In this document: in pieces, positions 30,518 to 31,707 of the stretch
Numbering within the stretch: the first letter of the stretch is position 1
How the letters are laid out: every line of letters begins with the position of its first letter
Origin: Acidovorax radicis
GTDB taxonomy: Bacteria > Pseudomonadota > Gammaproteobacteria > Burkholderiales > Burkholderiaceae_C
Assembly: GCF_020510705.1 (NCBI RefSeq)
Contig: NZ_CP075184.1
Location: forward strand, 2,542,001-2,606,000
Length of the DNA stretch: 64,000 bases
Direction: 5' to 3'
The notes under the pieces: generated by a model
Told to the model about the DNA's origin: nothing
Database searches by the model: none
Seen by the model: the letters and a program-made list of their open reading frames with translations, nothing else
Translations under genes and position numbers: made by a program

Positions 30518-31707
30518 GCAGCCACCTCGGTCGATGCCAGGGCCTGCGCGTGCAGATTTTCCAGCGTACGGCGATAAATATTCTTGAGGGGTTCGATGTC
30601 AGCCACGACCACATACTCGTCAATCTTGTGGATGGTGGCGTTGGGTGGACCCATTTCGATCACCTGCGGGCACACCTGGGCGATGAAGCGGCCGTCACTG
30701 GTGCCGCCGGTGGTGGACAGCTCGGTGGTCACGCCCGTTTCGGCGTGAATGGCACGTTGGACAGCGTCGACAAGCTCACCTGGCGTGGTGAGAAAAGGCT
30801 GACCGCCCAGCGTCCAGCGCAGGTCGTATTCGAGGCCATGGCGGTCCAGCACGGCGTGCACACGCTGCTTGAGCCCTTCGGCGGTGGACTCGGTGGAAAA
30901 GCGGAAGTTGAAGTCCACCACGACCTCCCCGGGAATGATGTTGGTGGCACCGGTGCCACCGTGGACATTGCTGATCTGCCAGCTGGTGGGCTGAAAGAAA
31001 TCGTTGCCCTGGTCCCAGGAAATGGCGGCCAGCTCTGCTAACGCGGGCAGCGCTTGGTGAATGGGATTGCGAGCCAGTTGTGGGTAAGCGATGTGGCCCT
31101 GCACGCCGCGCACCGATAGTTTGCCGCTCAAGGTGCCGCGCCGACCATTTTTGATCATGTCACCTGTGCGCTCGACCGACGTGGGCTCGCCCACAATGCA
31201 GTAGTCCAGCCGTTCGCCACGAGCCGTCAGTTGCTCGACGACCACCTTGGTGCCGTCCACGGAAGGGCCTTCTTCGTCGCTGGTGAGCAACAAGGCGATT
31301 TGAATCTGGGGCTGCGGCGTGGCGGCGAGGAACTCTTCCACCGCCACCACAAAGGCGGCGATAGAGGTTTTCATGTCGCTGGCGCCTCGGCCATAGAGCT
31401 TGCCGTCTTGGTGGGTCGGCACGAACGGATCACTGCTCCAGCGCTCCAGCGGCCCTGTGGGTACCACATCGGTATGGCCCGCAAATACTACGGTTTTGAT
31501 AGCTGCTTGCGCTTGTGGAATAAGCGCTGCAGGCCGTTTCGCCCATAAATTGCTGACACGGAAGTCCGCCGGGCCACTGTCCATCCGTTCGCACGCAAAA
31601 CCCAGGGGGGCCAGCCGGTCGGCCAGCAGATCAAGGCAGCCTGCGTCTTGGGGGGTGACGGATGGCAGCGAAATAAGCTGTTCGGCCAGTTGCAGTGTGC
31701 GGGACAT
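30514..31707 (-). CDS. dapE: Succinyl-diaminopimelate desuccinylase DapE
   Basis: 397 residues, an M20 di-zinc hydrolase. Metal/catalytic motifs: [11 protein letters not shown] (about 75-85), [25 protein letters not shown] and the late TSDGRF and [12 protein letters not shown]. It releases L,L-diaminopimelate from its succinyl form in lysine and cell-wall synthesis. Between NLW and FAGHTD, where family members normally have only a few residues, there is [15 protein letters not shown]; this is the translation of a palindromic element. It follows pilU by 108 bp and overlaps prmB. Confidence 0.95.
31487..31541 (+). repeat. Palindromic element, copy 9 (inside dapE)
   Basis: CGGTTTTGATAGCTGCT, TGCGCTT-N7-AAGCGCT, GCAGGCC. 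The gene reads the opposite strand, as [11 protein letters not shown]. Confidence 0.85.

Follow-up and report, generated by a model that had tools for sequence, protein, structure and literature searches.

What does a palindromic element do inside the genes that carry it, and how did it come to be there? The question is raised by a copy in dapE of Acidovorax radicis, within a stretch of 64,000 nucleotides of the chromosome (hereafter the window). The original prediction counted six coding copies of this element, in ligA, pgeF, dapE, prmB, scpA and meaB, all read in one strand and in one frame of the six possible. It compared them with the palindromic elements of Rickettsia, inserted in-frame in genes, and proposed selection for a harmless frame.

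The element is abundant and well defined. The pattern GATAGCT-N4-GCGCTT-N7-AAGCGC with up to three mismatches gave 322 + 315 = 637 matches in the 5.0-Mb genome, and the reversed pattern, used as control in the same genome at the same mismatch limit, gave 0 + 0. In the window, TTTTGATAGCT with at most one mismatch was found eight times against an expectation of 0.29. The consensus extends from about −13 to 52 around GATAGCT-N4-GCGCTT-N7-AAGCGCTAGAGGCC, with A/T tracts flanking both sides; over some 60–70 bp it reads GCTA..ATTTgATAGCT-N4-GCGCTT-N7-AAGCGCT...GGCC..ATTT. A position matrix built from the genome itself detected 17 copies of at least 22 bits in the window (Table 1). Frame and position statistics were obtained from the window together with 60 stretches of 20 kb spaced evenly along the chromosome. 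This sample of 1.264 Mb covers roughly one quarter of the genome and held 176 copies of at least 30 bits and 182 of at least 22 bits. The best matrix score in 536 kb of two element-poor congeners was 27.4 bits.

Among 35 congeners, 31 showed at least 60 matches, and G002, G005, G030 and G031 showed 5 to 16. The named records among the matches listed included members of Acidovorax, Simplicispira, Giesbergeria, Comamonas, Alicycliphilus, Ottowia and Paenacidovorax. The 24 genomes from other families of the same order stayed at background level (0 to 10 matches; controls 0 to 11). Matches were also present in 46 stretches of viral contigs. On contig C1 of G026 (about 759–6722), nine exact-pattern copies lay in 6 kb, several with identical matched stretches; this cluster resembles a local array, unlike the dispersed and diverged copies elsewhere.

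Table 1. Motif copies in the window (positions from the first nucleotide of the window; phase given for coding copies; scores in bits).
Feature	Gene	Position	Strand	Phase	Score	Remarks
Motif copy, ligA N-terminus	10515-12623, +	10520..10592	-	opp/2	49.8	Copy in 8/8 element-rich congeners
Motif copy, pgeF	21428-22354, +	21880..21952	-	opp/2	68.4	Segment longer than in YfiH-family structures
Motif copy, prmB	29582-30517, -	30257..30329	+	opp/2	42.3	Length as in most copy-free orthologues
Motif copy, dapE	30514-31707, -	31483..31555	+	opp/2	71.5	Originally described as 31487..31541
Motif copy, scpA / methylmalonyl-CoA mutase	52676-54952, +	54271..54343	-	opp/2	53.6	Length unchanged
Motif copy, meaB C-terminus and stop	54961-55977, +	55914..55986	-	opp/2	53.1	
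Seventh coding copy, biotin carboxylase subunit gene (NCBIfam name)	57565-59613, +	59134..59206	-	opp/1	41.0	
Weak eighth coding copy, ligA		11318..11390	-	opp/2	32.0	27-48 bits nearby in 8 congeners
Intergenic copy		1868..1940	+		48.2	Copies near the same place in G004, G012, G014, G017
Copy outside predicted genes		5597..5669	+		52.8	
Intergenic copy		13562..13634	+		59.0	Of 8 element-rich congeners only G007 and G032 share it
Intergenic copy		19168..19240	-		82.5	Copy in 8/8 element-rich congeners; stem covariation visible
Intergenic copy		27345..27417	+		68.0	Congener segments 136-147 nt vs 146, all weaker matches
Partly eroded copy between genes		39310..39382	+		41.5	Edge touches next gene call
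Intergenic copy		44712..44784	-		71.6	
Intergenic copy		45544..45616	-		85.6	
Intergenic copy, after biotin carboxylase gene		59656..59728	-		72.7	

The reading frame of the coding copies was analyzed on gene calls from a codon-usage gene finder made for this work, which are uncurated. The six copies in ligA, pgeF, prmB, dapE, scpA and meaB are all present and share one strand and one phase (opp/2), as claimed. Exclusive use of one frame does not hold, because the seventh coding copy of the window reads opp/1 and the coding copies of the sample fill five phases. At 30 bits or more, 42 of the 176 copies were coding, distributed as opp/2 22, same/2 11, opp/0 4, opp/1 3, same/0 2 and same/1 0; at 22 bits or more (43 of 182) the values in the same order were 23, 11, 4, 3, 2 and 0. 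The second phase, same/2 (11/42), gives a peptide like IATSAYGISAGG. In the 139 non-coding copies of the genome the phases were open at rates of.60 (opp/2),.59 (same/2),.50 (opp/1),.30 (same/1),.22 (opp/0) and.02 (same/0). With opp/2 open in 60% and same/2 in 59% of these copies, stop avoidance alone predicts shares of 27% and 26%. The observed 52% for opp/2 is higher than 27% (binomial p = 4e-4; five-class chi-square p = 3e-4), and opp/2 was also found in 8 of 12 coding copies of G012 and 9 of 16 of G017. In this quarter-genome sample opp/2 is thus over-represented beyond stop avoidance, while 20 of the 42 coding copies use other phases: the frame preference is real, its exclusivity is not. 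The data support the idea that a harmless frame is preferred and that the copies lie in parts of the proteins tolerant of change.

In-frame insertion, as suggested by the Rickettsia comparison, is contradicted by equal lengths with and without a copy in scpA, prmB, the biotin carboxylase gene and a membrane-protein gene (L051). ScpA aligned with the human mitochondrial mutase 2xij with zero gaps across the copy, and PrmB aligned with HemK 1sg9 of Thermotoga with a single one-residue gap at the copy edge. Between matched flanks, scpA measured 156 nt in all 8 species aligned, prmB 144 nt in 10 of 11 and the biotin carboxylase gene 157 nt in 7 of the 8 compared; motif-present, partial and motif-absent states occur among these species. 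At the biotin carboxylase site the element-free G031 had a matrix score of −31. In the L051 gene, 12 of the 15 motif-bearing sequences (the A. radicis sequence and 14 congeners, with motif presence scored by eye) had the same length as the two motif-free ones (G031 and G005), and the remaining 3 were one codon longer, outside the core. At these four testable coding sites the motif was therefore written in place by base changes, with no change of length. The original prediction had named the same peptide at the same site in repeat-free orthologues as evidence against it; a same-length segment does exist there, but its peptide differs, so that the prediction is refuted in part by its own criterion. 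In a tree of dapE alone, G031 and G005 fall within the motif-rich species, and their motif-free sequences may thus have arisen by loss; in that case the motif is both gained and lost by in-place base change.

Other coding copies are ambiguous, because they lie in length-variable segments where insertion is possible. DapE is 4–5 codons longer than its G031 and G005 counterparts, and the segment is in register at 28 of 30 dapE loci, that of A. radicis included. PgeF has about 39 extra residues compared with the YfiH-family structure 1xaf. LigA carries the copy in an N-terminal extension, and its best PDB alignments begin past the copy, at residue 22–23. In MeaB a C-terminal tail coincides with the copy, and in hrpA (L060) the copy occupies a linker of variable length.

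Conservation within dapE follows the motif. Over 28 loci, motif-conserved positions held 1.60 bits compared with 1.00 at free positions (Spearman 0.45, p = 0.002), and conserved third codon positions held 1.36 compared with 0.97 at flanking third positions, the third-position correlation alone giving p = 0.20. This result supports maintenance of the motif within genes at the DNA level. The architecture is also rigid: GCGCTT-N7-AAGCGC was found at 86 places in 1.264 Mb, where the spacings N5, N6 and N8 were not found at all, and half-motif modules outside elements were rare (2/50, 2/172 and 4/45 strand-wise matches). The best pair among 182 copies was identical at 55 of 65 positions, not above the best of 100 shuffles. 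The mean nearest-neighbour identity was 47.5 of 65 compared with a null value of 46.0 (sd 0.15), which indicates that the copies are not fully independent. In the loop (positions 17–23), ATGGAT and ATCCAT, mutual reverse complements, both recur, as if the core flipped between the arms.

In 120 non-coding copies, facing stem positions paired about as independence predicts (for example 0.65 versus 0.68), and no excess pairing was seen at 8–32, 9–31 or 10–30. Linkage above the null was seen for 38 pairs of positions, none of them more than 4 nt apart, such as AAA or TTT at 40–42. Between species, the stems of the copy at 19168–19240 covaried (0.76 paired versus 0.63 with species mixed), and this was clear at one of eight intergenic sites; the pooled excess between orthologues was small (0.611 versus 0.576 at the eight intergenic sites, 0.588 versus 0.568 at six coding sites). 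An Rfam search of the window gave 0 matches at the gathering score. A function as RNA or hairpin was set aside, since the copies as a whole showed no covariation and orthologues, apart from those of 19168–19240, showed little. On balance, the element appears to be mainly a maintained double-strand DNA motif of about 60–70 bp that is recognised by its sequence.

The copies occupy fixed sites. In eight motif-rich congeners, 122 positions orthologous to the 17 copies of the window were found, and 107 of them held a copy within 330 bp, with a chance level of about 0.16; training each species' matrix on the same region favours this count. In the element-poor G031 and G002, 0 of 15 such positions were occupied. 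At these sites the inner core varies from one species group to another. With matrices re-estimated from a start with a blank core, the core read GCGCTT..AAGCGC in A. radicis and G007, GCGCAT..CTAGCGC in G004 and G017, and GCGCAT..CGCGCG-like in G012, with per-position differences of p down to 3e-29. Genome-wide counts of dialects A, B and C were made with at most two mismatches, and the patterns share positions, so that some sequences are counted more than once. They were 481/50/8 in A. radicis, 388/42/12 in A. temperans and 458/52/7 in A. facilis; 119/200/62 in A. delafieldii, 139/224/65 in G004 and 105/169/47 in G017; and 74/14/136 in G010, 94/20/109 in G012, 78/10/121 in G013 and 74/6/87 in G019. 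Reversed-pattern controls gave 0 or 1. The A. facilis record (G061) and G024 had identical counts and places, are probably one genome and were counted once. The congener G029 (92% complete) had only 31 dialect-A matches and is perhaps losing the motif.

The four C-dialect species form one clade in the dapE tree (support 0.978). They are also the only ones, among 30 dapE loci, with (L/S)PRDQL at the motif site of DapE. As both sets of species are the same, the dialect rewrites protein sequence. There are thus at least three genome-wide dialects, which follow the phylogeny of this one-gene tree and shift the coding copies too.

Along the chromosome, the copies per 20 kb were Poisson-like (mean 2.75, variance 2.50). 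Copies were found in 32 of 116 gaps between convergent predicted genes, 97 of 565 tandem gaps and 4 of 125 divergent gaps. Relative to the direction of tandem genes, neither strand was preferred (51:49), and there was no clear orientation bias by GC skew (41+/52− versus 51+/38−). In codon-atypical DNA (lowest decile, 31 of 308 windows) there were 0.06 copies per 4 kb compared with 0.35–0.83 elsewhere (p = 5e-6). Five of the 60 stretches of 20 kb were free of copies. As this is not above the Poisson expectation of about 4, only the content of these stretches is telling. Three of the five contain, besides ordinary genes, phage (L014), conjugation/OLD (L057) or type I restriction (L017) genes; in the other two, with 3 proteins checked each, there was no Pfam hit or one glycosyltransferase. 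The L014 stretch includes genes for tape measure and capsid proteins.

Possible exchange between species was seen in G021. In comparison with its sister G033, 51 of 944 windows were nearer to a non-sister, with a median distance to the motif of 415 bp versus 1306 bp. Because the windows are overlapping and come mostly from a single region, the recombination signal near motifs is only suggestive. Between 52676 and 59613 (scpA to biotin carboxylase) G021 was often closer to non-sister species than to G033, which suggests past inter-species recombination of G021 around the motif-bearing genes of this region.

These observations can be compared with several explanations of how the element is kept. 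The main rival to an uptake-type signal, although rather unlikely in our estimate, is an intracellular chromosome-organising or nucleoid protein that binds the palindrome, with selection on binding keeping the sites and the dialects reflecting co-evolution. The dyad core, the fixed 7-nt spacing, the A/T tracts and the near-independent positions resemble the site of a dimer, and the Poisson-like distribution fits as well. However, the copies are not confined to one region, they follow no clear GC-skew rule of orientation, and the near absence of the element from G031 and G005, nested among rich species, speaks against an essential role. The depletion in acquired DNA does not discriminate between uptake and a nucleoid protein. 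Intrinsic bidirectional transcription terminators whose stems share sequence are very improbable as a general explanation: the 3'-end enrichment (convergent over divergent gaps) and the covarying stem of the 19168–19240 copy are in their favour, but 42 of 176 copies lie within predicted genes, the 120 non-coding copies lack stem covariation, and a terminator requires neither a shared sequence nor a dialect. A few or more of the intergenic copies may also act as terminators.

A mobile palindromic element (RPE-, REP/RAYT- or MITE-like) would account for the family by hundreds of insertions, those in genes surviving only in a harmless frame. Its palindromic form, its hundreds of copies, the slight excess of similar pairs and the length-variable segments of dapE, pgeF, ligA, meaB and hrpA agree with such an origin, and one copy (L069:1075-1134) overlaps the 3' end of the single Y1 transposase-like gene of the genome. 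We nevertheless regard it as improbable, because it is contradicted by the same-length sites and the orthologous positions with in-place dialect shifts, and neither core spacing variants nor near-identical pairs were found. The Y1_Tnp family (PF01797) is present in 34 of 36 genomes; the four poor ones all have it, and the rich G018 and G025 lack it; the A. radicis gene scores 71.9 bits, below the REP_Tyr_transpos cut-off of 80 (NCBIfam). Mobility driven by a RAYT was rejected, since presence of the motif does not track the RAYT-like gene.

The family shares features with several known systems. Rickettsia palindromic elements are insertions, palindromic repeats inside genes; the motif is likewise palindromic and genic, but differs in having equal-length orthologues at four sites. 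REP/RAYT systems resemble the motif in their hundreds of short palindromes close to the 3' ends of genes, but about a quarter of the motif copies lie in predicted genes. The USS of Haemophilus influenzae has A/T-rich flanks and preferred coding frames, and the motif is alike in both. About 1300 USS copies exist, many at gene 3' ends (PMC5217627), compared with hundreds of motif copies, likewise at 3' ends. The 9-bp core of the USS makes terminators where it occurs as an inverted pair (PMC5217627), whereas each motif copy is itself palindromic and its stems hardly covary. The DUS of Neisseriaceae resembles the motif in its very many copies and in dialects that follow phylogeny (PMC3630211). It differs in that the DUS is short, while the motif spans about 60–70 bp with a palindromic core and belongs to another family; selective transformation has been shown for the DUS (PMC3630211), and for the motif we only infer it. 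The closest analogy is DUS/USS. As the information of the motif is spread over about 60–70 positions, compared with the 9–11 bp of the uptake sequences named in PMC4212676, it is compared with known families and not filed under them.

In Acidovorax ebreus, the pair GCTTAT-N5-AAGCG with 114 copies was listed as a 'potential novel motif' (PMC5217627, Table 7). It fits the motif core and is likewise rare between divergent genes (4/107); the section of that paper considered here mentions neither the full element nor dialects, overprinting or uptake. The pair ATAGCT-N22-CAAAAG of Polaromonas naphthalenivorans (125 copies; PMC5217627) has ATAGCT in common with the motif, but its second half is off the consensus at that spacing; the two are possibly related. 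In the open-licence literature searched, we found no described uptake sequence for this bacterial family.

Natural transformation has been reported for A. temperans and A. facilis, reportedly with no cross-transformation between them (PMC4212676). A. temperans, which is not the species of the present genome, was transformed by DNA of its own species only (PMC4212676, 2014), and the parts of that paper considered here name no signal for this preference. ComEC was found in 27 of 30 genomes, including that of A. radicis. It is present in the element-poor G002, G030 and G031, and absent from the poor G005 as well as from the rich G003 and G019; competence genes thus do not follow motif richness, and ComEC presence was uninformative as a discriminator. 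Both A. temperans and A. facilis have dialect A yet reportedly do not cross-transform, and dialect alone therefore cannot explain the barrier between them, which would need another cause, such as divergence.

The many copies on both strands, the in-place change, the dialects, the 3'-end and coding copies and the scarcity in foreign DNA together lead us to favour, with modest confidence, an uptake-type signal comparable to DUS/USS, where uptake itself is presumed by analogy. The motif would be kept at fixed chromosomal sites across an Acidovorax-type genus because a recogniser acting from outside, most probably the competence pilus or some other receptor for sequence-specific DNA uptake, prefers fragments that carry it. 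Transformation would bring better-matching alleles back into genomes, where they would build up in the manner of DUS/USS. Coding copies would persist where the overprinted peptide is tolerated, which would favour the stop-poor, Ala-rich frame, and intergenic copies would collect at gene 3' ends, off promoters. We tentatively propose, as a possibility that we hold a little less firmly than the uptake-type reading itself, that this is a third, independently evolved DNA uptake signal, in the Acidovorax-type Comamonadaceae: a dyad of about 60–70 bp with genome-wide dialects, spread through uptake and recombination by a drive powerful enough for in-place rewriting of protein segments, and lost wholesale together with its recogniser.

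If this is true, the motif would be a candidate for the signal behind the own-species DNA preference of A. temperans, and would offer a long motif in which to study the joint dialect change of a recogniser and several hundred genomic sites. Even without a role in uptake, the element is a repeat family that enters coding sequence by in-place change, which calls for caution where palindromes within genes are read as in-frame insertions.
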